DNA from: Curvibacter sp.
GTDB lineage: Bacteria; Pseudomonadota; Gammaproteobacteria; Burkholderiales; Burkholderiaceae_C
Length of the DNA stretch: 39,168 nucleotides
Reading direction: 5' to 3'
Assembly (NCBI GenBank): GCA_019233055.1
Contig: JAFAMV010000042.1
Coordinates: forward strand, 1-39,168
The position numbers and the translations under genes are program-made. The notes below the pieces were generated by a model. That model searched no databases. It saw only the letters and a program-made list of their open reading frames with translations, and was not told the origin of the DNA. Positions 1 through 36,333 of the stretch are shown piece by piece (the first letter of the stretch is position 1; every line of letters starts with the position of its first letter).

Positions 1-1372
1 TGTAGCCCTGGCCGATGCCCAGCGAGATGGTCTCGCCCGCGTACCAGCGCTTCTGCTCGGGGCGCTTGTAGGTGTTGCGCTTCCATTCGGTCGAGGGCAG
101 CACGCCCCGGACCTCGCCGAAGATGTCGATGCCGGTGACCGATCCGAAGCCGAACTTCTGCACTTCGTCATGGATCAGGTCCACCCCCATGTCGTTGGCC
201 AGCATGTAGTAGTACACGTCGCACGACTGCACGATGGACTTGTACATGTCCACGGTGCCGTGCCCCCCCTCCTTGTCATCGCGGAAGCGGTGGTTGCCGA
301 ACATGAAATAGCCCGGGTCGAAGATGGTCTGCTGGGGCGTGCGCTTGCCGGTCTCCAATGCCGCCAGGGCCATGAAGGGCTTGTAGGTCGAACCCGGCGG
401 GTAGGTGCCGCGCAAGGCCCGGTTCAGCAGCGGCTTGTCGGGCGAGTCGTTGAGGGCCTGCCAGTTCTCCTGGTCGATGCCGTCGACGAAGAGGTTGGGG
501 TCGAAGGTGGGCTTGCTCACGAAGGCCAGCACTTCGCCGGTCTTGGGGTCCAGCGCCACCATCGCGCCACGGCGGTCGCCGAACAGGTCCTCGACCAGCT
601 TCTGCAGCTTGATGTCGATCGACAGCACCACGGTGTTGCCCGGGGTCGCCGGGTGGCTGCTGAGGCGGCGCACCGCGCGCCCGCCGGCGGAGGTCTCCAT
701 CAGCTCGAAGCCGGTGGTGCCATGGAGCTGGCTCTCGTAGCTCTGTTCGACGCCGAGCTTGCCGATGTACTCGGTGCCGCGGTAATTGGCCTCGTCGTCG
801 GAATCCTGGATCTCTTCCTTTTCCTTCTCGTTGATGCGGCCGATGTAGCCGATCACATGGCTGGCCAGCTCACCATAGGGGTAGTTGCGGAACAGCCGGG
901 CCTTGATCTCCACACCGGGGAAGCGGAAGCGCTGCGCCGCGAAGCGCGCCACCTCCTCGTCGGACAGCCGGGTGCGGATGGGCAGTGAATCGAAGCTGCG
1001 CGACTCCTCCGAGAGCTTCTTGAAGCGGCGCCGGTCGCGCGGCTGGACGTCGACCACCTTGGCCAGTTCATCGATCAGGTCCTCGATGGGCTGGAGGGTC
1101 TTGGAGGGTGTGATCTCCAGCGTGTAGGCCGAATAGTTGCTGGCCAGCACCACCCCGTTGCGGTCCACGATCAGGCCCCGGTTGGGCACGATGGGCACGA
1201 CGGCGGTGCGGTTGTTCTCGGCCTGTTCGGCCAGGTCGGCGTGGCGCACCACCTGCAGGTAGAGCAGGCGCGCCGCCACCAGCGAGAAGCAGAGGATGAC
1301 CCCCAGCCCCGCCACCAGCACCCGGGTGCGGAAGCGCGAGAGATCGGCTTCGACGTTGCGCAGCTCGGTCAT
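1..1372 (-). CDS. mrdA: Penicillin-binding protein 2 (peptidoglycan D,D-transpeptidase), 3' end outside window
   Basis: The minus-strand reading frame starts with ATG at 1372 (MTELRNVEADLSRFRTR) and runs off the left edge, so only about 457 residues are present. A hydrophobic segment at about residues 18-40 fits a single N-terminal membrane anchor. The acyl-serine motif STYK is at residues 328-331 and the SxD-type motif SCD at 383-385. Both positions match PBP2 closely; the KTG motif would lie beyond the window. PBP2 crosslinks peptidoglycan during lateral-wall growth in the rod complex with RodA and MreBCD, which agrees with the mreDCB genes immediately upstream in the same direction. The gap to mreD is about 95 bases. 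Confidence 0.95.
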   Translation of the reverse strand, partial: MTELRNVEADLSRFRTRVLVAGLGVILCFSLVAARLLYLQVVRHADLAEQAENNRTAVVPIVPNRGLIVDRNGVVLASNYSAYTLEITPSKTLQPIEDLIDELAKVVDVQPRDRRRFKKLSEESRSFDSLPIRTRLSDEEVARFAAQRFRFPGVEIKARLFRNYPYGELASHVIGYIGRINEKEKEEIQDSDDEANYRGTEYIGKLGVEQSYESQLHGTTGFELMETSAGGRAVRRLSSHPATPGNTVVLSIDIKLQKLVEDLFGDRRGAMVALDPKTGEVLAFVSKPTFDPNLFVDGIDQENWQALNDSPDKPLLNRALRGTYPPGSTYKPFMALAALETGKRTPQQTIFDPGYFMFGNHRFRDDKEGGHGTVDMYKSIVQSCDVYYYMLANDMGVDLIHDEVQKFGFGSVTGIDIFGEVRGVLPSTEWKRNTYKRPEQKRWYAGETISLGIGQGY

Positions 1373-1467
1373 GCGCCCCTCCAGGGCGGGGTGGCGCCCG
1401 GCTTGCACCGCGAGGGCGGACAGGACGGCGCCGGGGCGTCAGGCAGCGGCAACAGAAGACTCATGAC

Positions 1468-4545: not shown

Positions 4546-6039
4546 ATGACCTCCCCTGCATTGCACGACCTGGGCGTGGCCGAGCTGGCCCGCCGACTCC
4601 AGACCCGTGAGGTTTCCGCCGTCGAGGCGGCCACCCATTTCCTGGGCCGCATCCAGGCAGCCCCCCAGTACGGCGCCTTCGTCGCCCTGAACGAAGAGGC
4701 CACCCTGGCCGAGGCGCGCGCCGCCGACGAGCGGATCGCCGCCGGCCAGGCCCGCCCCCTGGACGGGGTGCCGATCGCACACAAAGATATCTTCGTTACA
4801 AAAAATTTCCCCAGCACGGCGGGTTCAAAGATGCTGGCCGGCTATCAATCCCCTTTTGACGCCACGGTTGTCACCCGCCTGGCCGAGGCCGGCGCCGTGA
4901 CCCTGGGCAAGCTCAATTGCGACGAATTCGCCATGGGCTCGGCCAACGAGAACTCGGCTGTCGCCCCGCTGGGTTTCGCGGCCCCGGCCCCGGTGCGCAA
5001 CCCCTGGGACCCCGAACGCGTGCCCGGCGGCTCCTCGGGCGGCAGCGCCGCCGCCGTGGCGGCCCGCCTGGCCCCGGCCGTGACCGGCACCGACACCGGC
5101 GGCTCGATCCGCCAGCCCGCCAGCTTCTGCGGCATCACCGGCATCAAGCCCACCTACGGCCGGGCTTCGCGCTACGGCATGATCGCCTTCGCCTCCAGCC
5201 TCGACCAGGCCGGCCCCATGGCCCGCAGCGCCGAAGACTGCGCCCTGCTGCTGTCGGCGATCTGCGGCCCCGACCCGGACCGCGACTCGACCTCGCTCGA
5301 CGTGCCGGCCGAAGACTTCTCGCGCGGCCTGAACGACTCGATCGACGGCCTGCGCATCGGCATCCCGGCCGAATTCTTCGGCGAAGGCCTGGCCCCCGAT
5401 GTGCGCGCCGCCGTCGATGCGGCCCTGAAGGAATACGAAAAGCTGGGCGCCAAGCTGGTCCCCATCAGCCTGCCGCGCACCGAGCTGTCCATCCCGGTCT
5501 ACTACATCATCGCCCCGGCCGAGGCCAGCTCCAACCTGAGCCGTTTCGACGGCGTCAAGTTCGGCCACCGCGCCAAGGACTACGCCGACCTGACCGACAT
5601 GTACAAGAAGACCCGCGCGGAAGGCTTCGGCGACGAGGTCAAGCGCCGCATCATGATCGGCGCCTATGTGCTGTCGCACGGCTATTACGACGCCTACTAC
5701 CTGCAGGCGCAGAAGATCCGCCGCATGATCGCCGACGACTTCCAGCAGGCCTTCAAGAGCTGCGATGTGATCGCCGGCCCGGTGGCCCCCACCGTGGCCT
5801 GGAAGCTCGGCGCCAAGTCCGCCGACCCGGTGGCCAACTACCTGGCCGACATCTTCACCCTGCCCGGCTCCCTGGCCGGCCTGCCCGGCATGAGCCTGCC
5901 GGCCGGCTTCGGCGAAGGCGGCATGCCCGTGGGCCTGCAGCTGATCGGCAACTACTTCGGCGAAACCCGCCTGCTCAACGCGGCCCACCGCTTCCAGCAG
6001 GCCACCGACTTCCACCTCCGCCGCCCCGAACTGGGCTGA
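4546..6039 (+). CDS. gatA: Aspartyl/glutamyl-tRNA amidotransferase subunit A
   Basis: A 497-residue amidase-signature enzyme that releases ammonia from glutamine for transamidation of tRNA-bound Glu or Asp. The Ser-cisSer-Lys triad is visible: Lys80 in AHKDIF, Ser163 in the GGSSGGS signature and Ser187 in [12 protein letters not shown]. The C-terminus contains the expected PGMSLPAGF and GLQLIG motifs. It lies 12 bases after gatC. In many relatives gatB follows at once, but here two unrelated genes intervene. Confidence 0.97.
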
Positions 6040-6066: not shown

Positions 6067-7269
6067 ATGGCCTATTCGGATCAGGAACTGCTGGCTCTGA
6101 TCAACGAACCTGAGTCGTTGACCTTGGAGCGCAAGGAATCCTTCGTCAAGGAGAAGGCCTGCAAGACGGTGTGCGCTTTTGCCAACGATCTGGCAAACAC
6201 ACGTCGCAGCGGCGTGTTGCTGATCGGGGTGAATGACCAAGGCCAGGTGCTGGGTGTCCAGGTCACCGACCTGCTGTTGCAGGCAGTCGATCAGATCAAA
6301 TCAGACGCCCGTATACAGCCTCTGCCCAGTCTGACCGTCCGGGTGATCAATGCGGGGGAGCATCAGGTCATTGCCATCGAGGTTCAGCCTTCCAATCTGC
6401 CACCCGTGCGCTTTGACGGCCGCACCTGGGTGCGCATGGCCGCCAGTACGCACCAGGCCAACCTGGAAGACGAGCGCGTGCTCAACGAACGCCGCCGCAC
6501 CCATGCCGGCCGCTCGTTTGACAGCGAACCCGTACCTTCCGCCGCCGTGGATGATCTGGACCTGCGCTACTTCGAGGACATCTACCTGCCCAGCGCCCTG
6601 GCGCGCGATGTGCTCGCGGCCAATGGCCGCCAAATCGAAGAGAAACTCTGCACCACCCGCATGGCTTCAGGTACGGCCCCCTGCGTGCCGACCGTGGCCG
6701 GCCTGCTGACGCTGGGCTGGTCGGCGCAGGACTTCCTCAGCGGTGCCTACGTGCAGTTCATACGCTATGCAGGCACAGAGCAAGGCTCCGCCATTCTGGA
6801 CGAAGAGGCCATCACCGGCAATCTGGAAACCGTGATTCGCAGAAGCGAGGAGCGGCTCAAGGCGCACATCACGAGCAGCGTGCGCATCCTCGGCACCGAC
6901 CGCGAGAAAGTCGAACCCAGCTACCCGCTCGAAGCCCTGCAACAGTTGCTGCGCAACGCCATCCTGCATCGCAACTACGAAGGCACCAACGCACCGACGC
7001 GGATGTACTGGTTTGCAGATCGCCTGGAGATCTGGAATCCGGGCGGTCCATTCGGGCTGGTCACCCGCGAGAATTTCGGCCAACCCTACGCCACCGATTA
7101 CCGCAACCCCTGCATCGCCGAGGTGCTCCGGAATCTGGGCTTCGTCCAGAAGTTCGGTTTCGGAATCCAAAGTGCCCGACAGACCCTGGCCGCCAACGGA
7201 AACCCCGCGCCCGAATTCAAGGTCGAACAGGGCTATGTGCTGGTCACCATCCGCCAAAGGCCAGAATGA
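6067..7269 (+). CDS. AlbA_2 (Schlafen-type) domain protein with C-terminal GHKL-like ATP-binding domain
   Basis: A 400-residue protein. The N-terminal half matches the AlbA_2/Slfn domain: an ExK pair at Glu21 and Lys23, and the core strand GVLLIGVNDQGQVLG at about 49-63. The C-terminal half matches the GHKL-like domain found at the end of RecG-like AlbA_2 proteins, with the N-box LLRNAILHRNY at about 294-304 and the following WNPGGPFG. Proteins of this type are annotated as ATP-binding putative regulators, and some occur in defence loci; a specific role is not known. It starts 27 bases after gatA, and its stop overlaps the ATG of the ParA-like gene (ATGA at 7266-7269), implying a two-gene unit. 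By eye its base composition is less GC-rich than gatA and gatB, suggesting acquisition. Confidence 0.8.
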   Translation: MAYSDQELLALINEPESLTLERKESFVKEKACKTVCAFANDLANTRRSGVLLIGVNDQGQVLGVQVTDLLLQAVDQIKSDARIQPLPSLTVRVINAGEHQVIAIEVQPSNLPPVRFDGRTWVRMAASTHQANLEDERVLNERRRTHAGRSFDSEPVPSAAVDDLDLRYFEDIYLPSALARDVLAANGRQIEEKLCTTRMASGTAPCVPTVAGLLTLGWSAQDFLSGAYVQFIRYAGTEQGSAILDEEAITGNLETVIRRSEERLKAHITSSVRILGTDREKVEPSYPLEALQQLLRNAILHRNYEGTNAPTRMYWFADRLEIWNPGGPFGLVTRENFGQPYATDYRNPCIAEVLRNLGFVQKFGFGIQSARQTLAANGNPAPEFKVEQGYVLVTIRQRPE

Positions 7270-8282
7270 GCACGCCCACCCTGAGTTTCTTCAACAACAA
7301 GGGGGGGGTGGGCAAGACGACGCTCGTCTACCACCTCTCGTGGATGCTGGCCGAATTGGGTTTGAACGTGTTGGTGGTCGACGCCGACCCCCAGGCCAAT
7401 CTGACGGCCGCCTTCCTGGACGAAGCCGCCTTGATCGACCTCTGGAACACCGACCCCGGCCAGCCCGCGCAGACGCTGTTCGATGCCCTGCGCCCCTTGA
7501 CTCGGGTCGGCGATATCCTGCCCGTGCAAGCCCGCCAGATCACCCCAGGCCTGCACCTGATCCCCGGCGACCTAGCCCTCTCGGGTTTTGAAGACCCGCT
7601 GTCTGAGCAATGGGCCAAGGCCCTGTCCGAGGAAAACGCCGAGCGCGCCCTGTTGGTGCTCAGCGCTTTCTGGCGGGTGGCCCAACAAAGCGCGGCCGAC
7701 CTCCAGGCGGATCTCATCATTTTTGATGTGGGCCCCAACCTGGGTGCCATCAACCGCTCCGTGCTCCTGGGCACGGACCACGTGATCGTGCCCCTGGCTG
7801 CCGACCTTTTCTCGCTGCAGGGCCTGCGCAACCTGGGGCCCGCGCTGAAGCGCTGGCGATCGGGTTGGGCCGTGCGCCGCCAGGCGGTGGATGCGACGCT
7901 CGGCCCTCTGCCTGATGGCGCCATGCAGCCGGCCGGCTACATCGGCCTGCAACACCAGGAGCGGCTGTCGCGCCCGGTTCAGGCCTATGTCTCATGGCTC
8001 AACCGCATCCCCGGCGAATACAGGCAATGCCTGCTGTATGAGCCCGCCCAGCCCCCGGAATCGCTGCCGGACATCCGCAACGATCCCCACTGCCTGGCCC
8101 TGTTGCGCCACTACAAAAGCCTGATCCCCTTTGCCCAGGAGGCGCGTAAACCCGTCTTCAAACTGCGCTCGGCCGACGGCGCCATCGGCAGCCACGGAGC
8201 CGCTGTGTCTCGCGCCTACCAAGACTTTGAACAACTGGCCTGCAAGATACTTGATCGAATCGGCCTGGCCCTCCCCCTTTGA
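7266..8282 (+). CDS. ParA-like (MinD/ParA superfamily) ATPase
   Basis: A 338-residue protein with the deviant Walker A motif KGGVGKT at residues 12-18, the VVDADPQAN (A') segment near 38-46, and the switch II region [16 protein letters not shown] near 154-169. The signature lysines for dimer-dependent ATP hydrolysis are present. The C-terminal third (about 200-338) is not typical of chromosomal ParA, and no parB or centromere-like repeats are nearby, so chromosome partition is unlikely. Coupling to the AlbA_2 protein suggests that the ATPase acts with it. The gene ends 16 bases before gatB and so lies inside the gat transcription unit. Confidence 0.8.
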
Positions 8283-8298
8283 TTTTTCTGACCTGCCC

Positions 8299-9747
8299 AT
8301 GAGCCAACCCCAACTCGTCCAAGGCTACGAAGTCGTGATCGGCTTCGAAACCCACGCCCAGCTCTCCACCCAGAGCAAGGTCTTCAGCCGCGCGCCCACC
8401 GCCTTCGGTGCCGAGCCCAACACCCAGGCCTGCGCCGTGGACCTGGCCCTGCCCGGCACGCTGCCGGTCATGAACAAGGGGGCGGTCGAACGCGCCATCG
8501 AGTTCGGCCTGGCGATCGGCTCGCACATCTCGCCCAAGAGCATCTTCGCGCGCAAGAACTACTTCTACCCCGACCTGCCCAAGGGCTACCAGATCAGCCA
8601 GTTCGAGATCCCGGTGGTGGTCGGCGGCCAGGTCGAGTTCTTCCTCGGCGACGAGAAGAAGACCGTGCGCCTGGTGCGCGCCCACCTCGAAGAAGACGCC
8701 GGCAAGTCGCTGCACGAGGACTTCATCGGCCAGTCGGGCATCGACCTGAACCGCGCCGGCACGCCGCTGCTGGAGATCGTCACCGAGCCCGACATCCGCT
8801 CCAGCGACGAAGCCGTGGCCTACGCCAAGGAACTGCACAAGATCGTCACCTGGATCGGCATCTGCGACGGCAACATGCAGGAAGGCAGCTTCCGCTGCGA
8901 CGCCAACGTCTCGGTGCGCAAGCCCGGCCAGCCCCTGGGCACCCGGCGCGAGATCAAGAACCTGAACAGCTTCAAGTTCATGCAGCAGGCCATCGACTTC
9001 GAGGTACGCTGGCAGATCGAGCAGATCGAGGACGGCCACGCCATCCAGCAGGCCACCGTGCTGTTCGACCCCGACACCGGCGAGACCCGTGCCATGCGCA
9101 CCAAGGAAGACGCGGCCGACTACCGCTATTTCCCCGATCCCGACCTGCCCCCGCTGGTGATTGCCGAGGAATGGGTGCAGCGCGTGAAGGCGGCCATGAC
9201 CGAGCTGCCGCGCACCATGGCGGCCCGCTTCGTGGCCGACTACGGCCTGCCCGAGTACGACGCCACCACCCTGACCCAGAGCAAGGCCATGGCGGCCTAC
9301 TTTGAAGCAGCGGCCAAGGCCTGCGGCCAGCCCAAGCTGGTCAGCAACTGGGTGATGGGCGAACTGTCGCGCCGCCTCAACAGCGGCGAGGCCAGCATCG
9401 AGACCGCCCCGGTGAACGCCGCACAGCTGGCGGCGCTGGTGGGCCGCATCGCCGACGGCACCATCTCCAACAACGCCGGCAAGCAGGTGTTCGAAGCCCT
9501 GTGGAGCGGCGAGGCCGCCGAGGTCGACGCCGTCATCGAGGCCAAGGGTCTCAAGCAGATGAACGATTCGGGCGCGCTCGAGAAGATCATCGACGAGGTG
9601 ATTGCCGCCAACGCCGACAACGTGGCGCAGTACAAGGCCGGCAAGGACAAGGCCTTCAACGCCCTGGTCGGTCAGGTCATGAAGGCGAGCAAAGGCAAGG
9701 CCAACCCGGGCCAGGTCAACGAATTGCTGAAGGCCCGGCTGGCCTGA
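8299..9747 (+). CDS. gatB: Aspartyl/glutamyl-tRNA amidotransferase subunit B
   Basis: A 482-residue protein. I chose the ATG at 8299 ([22 protein letters not shown]) because it gives the standard GatB N-terminus; an in-frame extension back to 8131 overlaps the ParA-like gene and has no family resemblance. The kinase-like phosphorylation domain contains [14 protein letters not shown], and the C-terminal helical tRNA-binding (YqeY-like) domain ends with [22 protein letters not shown]. GatB activates tRNA-bound Glu or Asp with ATP before ammonia transfer from GatA. An imperfect hairpin without a T-run covers the stop codon. Confidence 0.97.
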
Positions 9748-10449: not shown

Positions 10450-11159
10450 GCGGTCCCTTCATCAACTCCATAGCGCTGGCGGTAGGCCAGCACACGTTCG
10501 TGGTCGGCCTGCAGGCCGGCACCGGATTGAGAAAGATACTGTAGCAAGTCTGAGAGCTTTGCGACCGCGCAGACCTGCAGTCCGAGTTGATCCCGGACAT
10601 ATTGCACAGCACTGTGCGGCACGTCCTGGCCGTTTTCCGTGGCCTTTTCCTGACGGTCGAGCGCAATCGCCACCGCATGCGGACGGGCACCTGCGGCCTC
10701 GATGATGGCGATCGACTCGCGGGCCGCCGTGCCGGCCGACATCACGTCGTCGACGATCAGCACCCGTCCCTTCAGCGGCGCGCCCACCAGGGTGCCGCCC
10801 TCGCCGTGGTCCTTGGCCTCCTTGCGGTTGTAGGCGAAGGGCACGTTGCGCCCCAGGCGCGCCAATTCGATCGCCACCGCCGCCGCCAGCGGGATGCCCT
10901 TGTAGGCCGGGCCGAAGATCATGTCGAACTCGATGCCGCTGGCCAACAGGCGTTTTGCATAGAATTCAGCCAGTCGACCGAGCTTGGCGCCGTCATCGAA
11001 CAGACCGGCGTTGAAGAAATAGGGGCTCATGCGCCCGGCCTTGGTCTTGAATTCACCGAAACGCAACACGCCCGAATCCACCGCGAACCGGACGAAGTCC
11101 TGGGCCAGGGCCTCTTGTCCGGACGTGTTGCCAACCTGCTGCGCGCGCTCAACCACCAT
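10446..11159 (-). CDS. pyrE: Orotate phosphoribosyltransferase
   Basis: A 237-residue protein that joins orotate to PRPP to form OMP in pyrimidine synthesis. The PRPP-binding motif VLIVDDVMSAGTA and the upstream FDMIFGPAYKGIPLA and YFFNAGLFDDG segments are characteristic. I chose the ATG at 11159 (MVVERAQQVGN) because the longer in-frame extension to 11357 only runs back through the divergent xth gene. The start codon abuts the beginning of xth, so promoters for both genes must lie within each other's coding sequence. Confidence 0.95.
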   Translation of the reverse strand: MVVERAQQVGNTSGQEALAQDFVRFAVDSGVLRFGEFKTKAGRMSPYFFNAGLFDDGAKLGRLAEFYAKRLLASGIEFDMIFGPAYKGIPLAAAVAIELARLGRNVPFAYNRKEAKDHGEGGTLVGAPLKGRVLIVDDVMSAGTAARESIAIIEAAGARPHAVAIALDRQEKATENGQDVPHSAVQYVRDQLGLQVCAVAKLSDLLQYLSQSGAGLQADHERVLAYRQRYGVDEGTA

Positions 11160-11169
11160 GGGGAATTCC

Positions 11170-11862
11170 TTGTTCAAATTGACCAGCCTCAATCTCAATG
11201 GCATCCGCTCTGCCGCCACCAAAGGCGTCGAAGCCTGGATCGAAGGCACCGAGCCGGATTGTATTTGCGTGCAGGAGATCAAGGCCCAGGCGCCCGACAT
11301 GGCCGGGCGCTTCGAGCAGATCGCGGGCCTGACGGGCCATTTCCAGTTCGCCGACAAGAAGGGCTACTCGGGCGTGGGTGTCTACACCCGCCATGAGCCC
11401 AGCGAGGTGGTGATCGGCTTCGACGGCGGCGAATTCGATGCCGAGGGCCGCTATGTCGAACTGCGCTTCGACACCCCGGCACGCCGCCTGTCGATCATCA
11501 GCAGCTACTTTCCGAGCGGCTCCTCGGGCGAAGAGCGCCAGCAGGCCAAGTTCCGCTTCCTGGACCGGATCCATCCGCACCTCATGGCGCTGAAGACTGA
11601 GCGCGAATTCATCCTCTGCGGCGACCTCAACATCGCCCACCGCGAGGCCGACCTGAAGAACTGGAAGGGCAACCTCAAGAACAGCGGCTTCCTGCCCGAG
11701 GAGCGCGCCTGGATGAGCCAGGTCCTGGCCGACGACGCCACCACGGGCGGCCTGGTCGACGTCTACCGGCGCCTGCAGCCCGACACCACCGACGCCTGCT
11801 ACACCTGGTGGAGCAACCGGGGCCAGGCCTATGCGAAGAATGTGGGCTGGCGGCTGGACTAG
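11170..11862 (+). pseudogene. xth: Host exodeoxyribonuclease III, 5' part truncated by the integrated element
   Basis: The frame encodes the first 230 residues of an exonuclease III/AP endonuclease (EEP fold): LTSLNLNGIRSA at the start, VQEIKAQ with the metal-binding Glu, GDLNIAH with the catalytic Asp and Asn, and a final GWRLD. It then meets a stop (TAG at 11860-11862) created by foreign DNA. The catalytic SDHAP histidine segment is missing here but is found at 36469-36580; joining 11861 to 36469 gives a complete in-frame gene of 267 residues. I prefer the TTG at 11170 because GGGGA lies 5 bases upstream and the product length matches the intact copy; ATG at 11158 is the alternative. The truncated product should lack nuclease activity. 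Confidence 0.92.
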
Positions 11863-35532: not shown

Positions 35533-36333
35533 ATGAAAGTAATCACTGCAAACCTAAACGGAATCCGATCCGCGGCCACTAAGGGCTTCTTCGAGTGGCT
35601 CCAACTGCAAGATGCAGACGCCCTTGGGGTGCAGGAAATCAAGGCGCAATCTGACGTTGTGGAAGGCACTTTCTGCCAATCAGCAGGTTTGTCTGGCCAC
35701 TTCCACTACGCCGAGAAGAAGGGTTACTCCGGTGTCGGTCTTTACACCCGCGTCGAGCCCAGCGACATCTTGGCTGGCTTCGGAGTTCCCGAGTTCGACG
35801 CGGAAGGGCGCTGGATCGAGAAGCGCTTCGACCGACCAGGCCGGAAGCTCAGCATCATCAGCTGTTACTACCCTAGCGGCTCCAGTGGCGACGATCGACA
35901 GCAGGCCAAGTTCCGCTTCCTCGACGCGATGGGGCCGCATCTGGCATCGCTCAAGAAGCAACGGGATTTCATCCTCGTCGGTGACGTGAACATAGCTCAC
36001 AAAGAAGCCGACTTGAAGAACTGGAAGTCCAACCAGAAGAACTCTGGCTTCCTTCCCGAGGAGCGGGCCTGGTTGACCCAGTTGCTAGGAACAGAAAAGG
36101 GGCAGGGTGGCTTGGTGGATGTGTACCGTCGCCTGCACCCCGACACTACCGATACCTGTTACACGTGGTGGAGCAACCGCGGACAGGCTTACGCAAAGAA
36201 TGTTGGTTGGAGACTGGACTACCAGTTCGCGACTCCTGGCATTGCAGCCCTTGCGCGGTCTGCGGCGATCTACAAGGAGCAGCGGTTCAGTGACCATGCG
36301 CCACTCACCATCGAATACGACATGTCGCTGTGA
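35533..36333 (+). CDS. xth: Exodeoxyribonuclease III, complete copy carried by the element
   Basis: A 266-residue EEP-family nuclease that removes 3' blocks and cuts at abasic sites in base-excision repair. Metal and catalytic residues are present: Glu35 in VQEIKAQ, GDVNIAH, the RLD segment and His255 in SDHAP. It is clearly homologous to the split host gene but diverged throughout, with different codons, so it is not a recent duplication of it. It lies 52 bases after res in the same direction and 120 bases before attR. The simplest explanation is that the element brings a working xth to replace the one it destroys. Confidence 0.94.
   Translation: MKVITANLNGIRSAATKGFFEWLQLQDADALGVQEIKAQSDVVEGTFCQSAGLSGHFHYAEKKGYSGVGLYTRVEPSDILAGFGVPEFDAEGRWIEKRFDRPGRKLSIISCYYPSGSSGDDRQQAKFRFLDAMGPHLASLKKQRDFILVGDVNIAHKEADLKNWKSNQKNSGFLPEERAWLTQLLGTEKGQGGLVDVYRRLHPDTTDTCYTWWSNRGQAYAKNVGWRLDYQFATPGIAALARSAAIYKEQRFSDHAPLTIEYDMSL

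Follow-up and report, generated by a model that had tools for sequence, protein, structure and literature searches.

A Schlafen-type AlbA_2/GHKL protein and a ParA-like ATPase inserted between gatA and gatB of a Curvibacter genome form a candidate two-gene defence module

Introduction

In the part of Anantharaman et al. (2013, PMC3710099) that treats it, a dyad of a HEPN gene (MAE_18760 family) and a ParA/Soj gene is predicted to be a toxin-antitoxin system with ParA as the antitoxin. Schlafen RNases have in turn been placed inside bacteriophage exclusion (BREX) loci, according to the main text of a 2026 BREX survey (PMC12839542). Here we analyse a 39,168-nucleotide stretch of a Curvibacter sp. 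genome (contig JAFAMV010000042.1 of assembly GCA_019233055.1; the window), in which an AlbA_2 (Schlafen) plus GHKL (HATPase_c_4) protein of 400 amino acids (gene 1; 6067-7269, forward strand) and a ParA-subfamily ATPase of 338 amino acids (gene 2; 7266-8282, forward strand) are encoded between gatA and gatB. We consider it fairly probable that this pair is a mobile two-gene abortive-infection or toxin-antitoxin-type defence module, comprising a Schlafen RNase effector and a ParA regulator, where toxicity, the defence role and the trigger are what we infer from comparison.

The present pair resembles the published HEPN-ParA dyad, as that source outlines it, in being a two-gene unit with a ParA/Soj-like ATPase beside a predicted RNase, but its partner is an AlbA_2/GHKL protein encoded upstream instead of downstream, and its ParA falls into a clade of its own. 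With the Schlafens of the BREX survey it shares a GHKL domain (there termed a "minimal histidine kinase") and, in one relative (L106), a BREX location; the survey's Schlafens, however, also carry a winged helix-turn-helix, and the whole word ParA is absent from the survey's main text (PMC12839542). That text also outlines PARIS (phage anti-restriction-induced system), which follows a similar two-gene logic of an ATPase (AriA) and a toxic nuclease (AriB, targeting tRNA), but AriA belongs to the OLD-type ABC ATPases and AriB to the TOPRIM nucleases (PMC12839542), neither domain being detected by Pfam in the present pair. Finally, gene 1 has the AlbA_2 fold of the SLFN11/SLFN13 and SAMD9 nuclease domains, but as a single copy joined to a GHKL domain, with no helicase part. 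Although both the ParA-HEPN dyad and the presence of Schlafens in BREX loci have been published, descriptions of Schlafen-ParA, SIR2-ParA or RelA/SpoT-ParA pairings were not found in the literature searched, to which bioRxiv and most subscription journals were out of reach. Relative to that literature, four features would be new, with priority uncertain: the Schlafen-ParA pair, its spread, the pairing of a single ParA subfamily with four types of partner, and the N-box substitution described below.

Results

Conservation of the Schlafen-ParA pair

When the gene 2 ParA protein alone was used to search 84,980 species genomes, at least 555 relatives were returned, of which the best 80 (50-72% identical) were kept; L-numbers denote loci or sequence stretches, and G-numbers genomes, as labelled in the present analysis. 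All 80 of these loci have a Schlafen homologue directly upstream of ParA; 71 of the homologues are whole, and the other 9 are interrupted, partial, truncated at a contig end or off-size. The addition of seven loci from the window's family brought this to 87 of 87. A 4-base overlap is the commonest spacing between the two genes (61 of 85 loci measured; in the remaining two, L086 and L096, the longest ParA open reading frame starts too far upstream). Taxonomic labels among these best 80 of at least 555 relatives range from Burkholderiales to Planctomycetota, Acidobacteriota, Chloroflexota and Cyanobacteria; many of the loci are from metagenome-assembled genomes (MAGs), whose labels can be wrong, and one locus labelled Cytophagales (L027) has the same match figures as a genome of the window's own family (G037).

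Of 360 genomes sampled evenly across the class, 11 contain gene 1 (E<=1e-50), with gene 2 adjacent in 10 of them; at the same threshold, nine of 200 genomes of the window's family possess gene 1, and eight of these nine also have a close ParA. Pairwise distances of gene 1 and gene 2 homologues were also found to correlate (r 0.84, 72 pairs; 0 of 2000 permutations as high), although the permutation test does not remove shared ancestry, which contributes to this value. Occurring in about 3% of the class sample, the Schlafen-ParA unit is rare; its distribution is patchy, and its two genes are tightly coupled. An earlier note, made from the letters of the window, had suspected a compact two-gene system, possibly for defence or stress, and the pair does recur as a conserved unit at many other sites; the conserved pairing lends support to such a system, with defence as its putative role.

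Additional Schlafen-type genes were also observed in these genomes. At L169 of the family genome G043 (291-1427, reverse strand), a gene-1 relative (43% identical) follows an apparent glutaminyl-tRNA synthetase gene and precedes a 378-amino-acid gene with no Pfam match. G100, one of the eight family genomes with the pair, has two further gene-1 relatives on one contig, and in L084 a second, more distant Schlafen-type gene (7306-9150) lies shortly downstream of the Schlafen-ParA pair.

Features of the two proteins

In agreement with the domains named in the earlier note, Pfam matches identified SLFN_AlbA_2 (PF04326, E 5e-19) and HATPase_c_4 (PF13749, E 4.7e-17) in gene 1, and AAA_31/ParA (PF13614, E 8e-28) in gene 2. 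The AlbA_2 domain of gene 1 spans approximately residues 16-131 (6112-6459, forward strand) and includes an ESxxxExK motif, with the HATPase_c_4 stretch covering residues 312-395 (7000-7251, forward strand). In a structure model of gene 1 (predicted local distance difference test, pLDDT, 92; predicted template modelling score, pTM, 0.75), the N-terminal portion matched the nuclease domains of SLFN11, SLFN13 and SAMD9 (Z about 10-11 over about 110-140 residues), and the C-terminal portion matched GHKL proteins (Z about 8-10). The nearest solved structure overall was C. diphtheriae DIP2311 (PDB 3lmm; Z 22.9), a protein of 583 amino acids whose aligned N-box keeps Glu, and the whole-chain root-mean-square deviation of 17.6 indicates that the domains are differently set in the gene 1 model and in 3lmm. 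Similarly, the model of gene 2 (pLDDT 95) was closest to C. diphtheriae DIP2308 (PDB 3pg5), followed by Soj/ParA. DIP2308 and DIP2311 differ by three in their locus-tag numbers, which suggests near-neighbour genes, and the two structures may come from one C. diphtheriae locus; a literature search, judged by titles, found no functional paper on the DIP2311/DIP2308 pair.

We next consider residue conservation in 72-row alignments, which left out 9 of the 80 loci with interrupted, partial or off-size gene 1. The acidic triad of active Schlafen RNases is present in gene 1 as E16 (72/72), E21 (71/72) and D57 (65/72), accompanied by K23 (72/72), and a weak sequence match to SLFN11 (E 1.2) places the E/E/D positions opposite its PESxxxExK and GVxD motifs. 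In SLFN13, mutations of E205, E210 and D248 diminish RNA cleavage, with all three residues needed for it in full, as stated in the sections consulted of PMC5862951. Judged by spacing and motif rather than by superposition, the triad of gene 1 appears equivalent to these three residues. Gene 1 is a predicted Schlafen-type endoribonuclease.

The N-box of the GHKL domain, just upstream of the HATPase_c_4 stretch, has Gln (Gln293) in 72/72 aligned proteins and also in L107, with Glu in the compared relatives outside the clade. N-box Glu is the catalytic base of GHKL ATPases, and gene 1 thus departs from these ATPases in the residue that defines catalysis. Because Gln293 stands in place of the catalytic Glu, the GHKL domain is predicted to bind ATP without hydrolysing it, the capacity for hydrolysis having probably been lost.

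For gene 2, the deviant Walker A with its signature Lys, Walker A' and Walker B residues (K12, K17, D39, D41, D154) are retained in 72/72 sequences. Subfamily members are better distinguished from the outgroup, which comprises few sequences (five ParAs), by G101, N163 and W197. A single C-terminal motif was rejected as a definition of the subfamily, matching 18/29 Schlafen-type, 21/23 SIR2-type, 3/20 solo, 0/7 HEPN, 0/2 RelA and 0/5 outgroup ParAs.

PADLOC yielded partial matches only, for gene 1 to models associated with prokaryotic Argonaute (pAgo; residues 27-396, E about 1e-12) and to a CARF model, and for gene 2 to PDC-M28B. As a separate observation, the partial pAgo-profile match hints at AlbA_2/GHKL parts in some pAgo-linked proteins.

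Exchange of partners across the ParA subfamily

Beyond the Schlafen-paired clade, more distant members of the ParA subfamily were found with a different, tightly spaced gene located downstream of ParA, as opposed to the upstream Schlafen. These full-length relatives with other partners came from plasmids (60 of 3432 records covered), phages and viral contigs. SIR2 proteins follow ParA in 23 loci, some of them near-copies, and the two SIR2 partners scanned match Pfam SIR2_2 and the ThsA- and LmuA-type models of PADLOC. HEPN proteins follow ParA in L133, L138, L151, L182-L184 and L219; these belong to Pfam HEPN_RiboL-PSP (one also matching MAE_28990/MAE_18760-like HEPN below cut-off), and an RNxxxH motif is present in 7/7 checked. 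They include an unannotated open reading frame of phage Pf1 (L133, 4013-4540), which lies directly after the ParA-like orf317 and encodes a HEPN_RiboL-PSP protein with RNxxxH. RelA/SpoT proteins were identified downstream of ParA in L222, L223 and L161. The even class sample gave a comparable range, its 20 matching ParA rows being associated with Schlafen (10), HEPN (3), SIR2 (2), RelA/SpoT (2), no recognised partner (2) and a ParA fragment (1). In a census of 146 loci, 5 were without a full-length ParA and 26 without a recognised partner, the latter including plain ParA outgroups, sequences ending inside or near ParA, and L161, later assigned to RelA/SpoT.

Phylogenetic reconstruction was based on 86 ParA rows: 29 Schlafen (26 database loci, the window, L106 and L107), 23 SIR2, 20 solo, 7 HEPN, 5 outgroup and 2 RelA/SpoT, leaving out L129-L132, L161 and most of L185-L221. 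The Schlafen, HEPN and RelA/SpoT rows each formed one side of a supported branch, and all 23 SIR2 rows shared a supported branch with L123 and L127, in which the sequence ends at ParA. ParAs paired with HEPN grouped with the other subfamily members rather than with the five outgroup sequences, as a clade of their own. Only 7 changes were needed to distribute the six partner labels over the tree, against a shuffled mean of 47.

The same pattern bears on how ParA might act. Rather than restraining its partner, ParA could be a sensor and activator, forming dimers or assemblies on invading DNA and turning on an effector that is inactive by itself. A conserved ParA core beside a varying effector is what would be expected of a shared sensor, the ParA catalytic residues are intact on a Soj/ParA-like fold, and ParA genes without partners are tolerated. 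Restraint, however, would be expected to leave ParA genes beside an interrupted, partial or missing effector, as seen in L031, L037, L064, L086, L093 and G381, although this pattern is weak given that the search began from ParA, that MAG errors may break genes and that G527 shows the reverse. The HEPN version has also been read in print with ParA as antitoxin (PMC3710099). While activation is thus a serious yet rather unlikely account, ParA acting by restraint is the favoured interpretation, by analogy with that same proposal.

Further observations concern individual members. Partner-less ParA genes reside in prophages or phage-like stretches in L134, L135, L159, L192, L202, L205 and L214, possibly as decoys or anti-defence genes, and in prophage SE1 such a gene lies two genes from the CI repressor. 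L219, a relative retrieved together with them, does carry a HEPN partner. The two RelA/SpoT-ParA loci of the class sample (L234, 887-1492; L235, 2205-2789, reverse strand) have a small gene directly upstream of ParA, similar by eye, which may point to a three-gene version.

Insertion into the gat operon

In the window, both open reading frames of the pair are intact and overlap by 4 bases (7266-7269). The pair is flanked on the same strand by the host genes gatA (4546-6039) upstream and gatB (8299-9747) downstream, with gaps of 27 bases between the end of gatA and gene 1 and of 16 bases between gene 2 and the start of gatB, as the earlier note had described for two coupled genes in this operon. 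Given this spacing, it is plausible that the pair is transcribed together with gatCAB. The lower GC attributed to the pair in that note is evident at third codon positions (GC3 0.771 and 0.823 for genes 1 and 2, against 0.910 and 0.934 for gatA and gatB), while in plain GC gene 2 (0.655) nearly equals gatB (0.663; gene 1 0.618, gatA 0.698).

The genus set comprised the source genome and eight others. In all eight, gatA runs directly into gatB, with a gap of about 2-13 bases in seven and about 85 in one (L143); the junction of G005, whose gatB is divided between two contigs, was read on piece L150. No gene-1 match was present at the gatA-gatB junction of these eight genomes, and elsewhere in them gene 1 gave weak matches only, in three (E 9e-16, 5e-9 and 3e-4), and none in five. 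The empty arrangement that the earlier note had proposed to look for in close relatives is therefore found in 8 of the 9 genus genomes, and the pair does not occupy this site throughout the order.

The insertion is not unique to this genome, as the order gatA-pair-gatB also occurs in Paracidovorax cattleyae and a Limnohabitans MAG (L026 and L042), in G037 (L027/L007) and in G117 (L178), the last with a 101-amino-acid open reading frame separating gatA from the pair. When 73 Schlafen-type ParAs were placed in a tree, the five from gat operons, including the window, were split from all others by a single supported branch (100/96; 100% of 200 bootstrap trees). That these ParAs form one clade points to an old insertion, and this is best explained by a single such event that was later lost or patchily passed on, perhaps through recombination of the flanking gat genes.

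Location in a translation operon, with other copies near housekeeping genes, might instead suggest a non-defence regulatory or stress module, in which an AlbA_2/GHKL transcription or RNA-binding regulator is localised by ParA and tunes translation together with gatCAB; distant plasmid relatives of AlbA_2 are indeed annotated as RNA-binding, ATP-binding or helix-turn-helix proteins. We judge this improbable, considering the gat site without insert in most of the genus, the occurrence of close homologues in such a small fraction of the class sample and at many unrelated sites, and the pairing of ParA relatives with SIR2, HEPN and RelA/SpoT, which are typical toxic-effector folds.

Genomic surroundings

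Several loci place the pair inside defence operons. L106, a contig from a viral collection, has the BREX operon order of an ATPase resembling BrxC by inspection, PglX, Schlafen, ParA, PglZ and BrxL. In L047, the pair follows an SNF2 helicase and precedes an apparent DUF1156 methylase and DUF499 (named by inspection and family tallies), and in L063 it lies between a PLD-helicase and an Eco57I-type methylase followed by a TIR-TPR protein. Neighbours of the 80 loci were scanned with PADLOC and Pfam (267 neighbours from simple gene calls, up to two per side, of at least 130 amino acids and cut to 330 residues); tallies are per family rather than per locus and have no background set, hence strong enrichment in defence islands is not claimed. 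At 18 of the 80 loci the pair has a same-strand gene within 250 bases on both sides, which suggests that residence in host operons is not peculiar to gat.

A further alternative is that the pair is a maintenance cassette, for addiction or partition, left behind by a mobile element and having no immune role. Consistent with this are the ParA family itself, the presence of relatives on plasmids and phages, and the patchy distribution. Yet no ParB-type partner lies between gatA and gatB, these two genes being the pair's direct neighbours in the window, and copies occur in many phyla and varied surroundings, some of them inside BREX and restriction operons; a maintenance cassette is thus about as improbable as the regulatory module above. 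ParB among neighbours of the 80 loci was considered through the Pfam scan, viewing the 25 commonest families of each half. A partition system specifically is not favoured, given the varied surroundings of the loci and the absence of a ParB next to the pair in the window.

Independently of the pair, the window contains a stretch of approximately 23 kb (11895-35480), about 2 kb from gatB, that is likely a defence island. It opens with a large serine recombinase and includes a type III restriction enzyme and methylase, SoFic, a GmrSD-N protein, a cytosine methylase and an SNF2-type helicase; it is flanked by an exonuclease III-type gene seemingly cut at its end (11029-11862) and a full second one (35533-36333).

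Discussion

A defence module composed of a Schlafen effector and a ParA regulator is preferred here because the pairing is conserved and patchy over phyla, the two proteins co-vary, catalytic-type residues are kept, partners are exchanged by clade and some loci lie in defence operons. In the mechanism we propose, the RNase of gene 1 would cut RNA, probably tRNA or rRNA, while its GHKL domain would bind nucleotide, probably without ATP hydrolysis. The ParA of gene 2 would restrain this nuclease until infection, presumably by phage, alters its nucleotide- or DNA-bound state, upon which the nuclease would be released or activated. The pair would then be the Schlafen form of a broader family that couples the same ParA subfamily to exchangeable toxic effectors (SIR2, HEPN, RelA/SpoT).

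A number of observations weigh against this interpretation. The pairing has exceptions: in G527, the eleventh gene-1 genome of the class sample, a contig begins with the C-terminal part of gene 1 and shows no ParA over the approximately 1.5 kb that follow, which rules out a pair merely split over contigs, and a ParA fragment is on another contig; in the same sample, G381 has a close ParA without gene 1, followed by an unclassified 468-amino-acid gene, and G450 has a second, partner-less ParA copy; and in G043, the ninth family genome with gene 1, a different downstream gene takes the place of ParA (L169). The deep-branching BREX copy, L106, retains the N-box Glu. Partner-less ParA members (20 tree rows, including L123 and L127) occur on phages, plasmids and chromosomes, which implies that the subfamily can do something without an effector. 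Further, defence-type as well as housekeeping families are represented among the neighbours of the 80 loci, and no PADLOC model describes the Schlafen-ParA pair, partial matches being the only ones obtained. Canonical ParA proteins move DNA or proteins, and we know of no ParA shown to gate a toxin.

More tentatively, and as a possibility rather than an expectation, this ParA subfamily could be a common gate for interchangeable suicide enzymes, including Schlafen RNases, SIR2 NADases, HEPN RNases and RelA/SpoT alarmone-type enzymes. An ATPase that positions DNA would in that case have been recruited to sense infection, perhaps by using its ATP-dependent DNA-bound state to read nucleoid or phage DNA, and the orphan members found in immunity regions of prophages would act as decoys or anti-defence antitoxins.

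If the defence interpretation is correct, a recognisable ParA subfamily would help to find further effectors, the partner of an unknown member being readable from the adjacent gene, and phage Pf1, with its HEPN-type gene after orf317, offers a ready laboratory case. Bacterial Schlafens, whose human relatives restrict viruses, would gain a defined two-gene regulatory partner. ParA-type ATPases, the movers of plasmids, chromosomes and organelles, would also be reusable as the regulatory half of immune modules, as are ABC, AAA+ and STAND ATPases.

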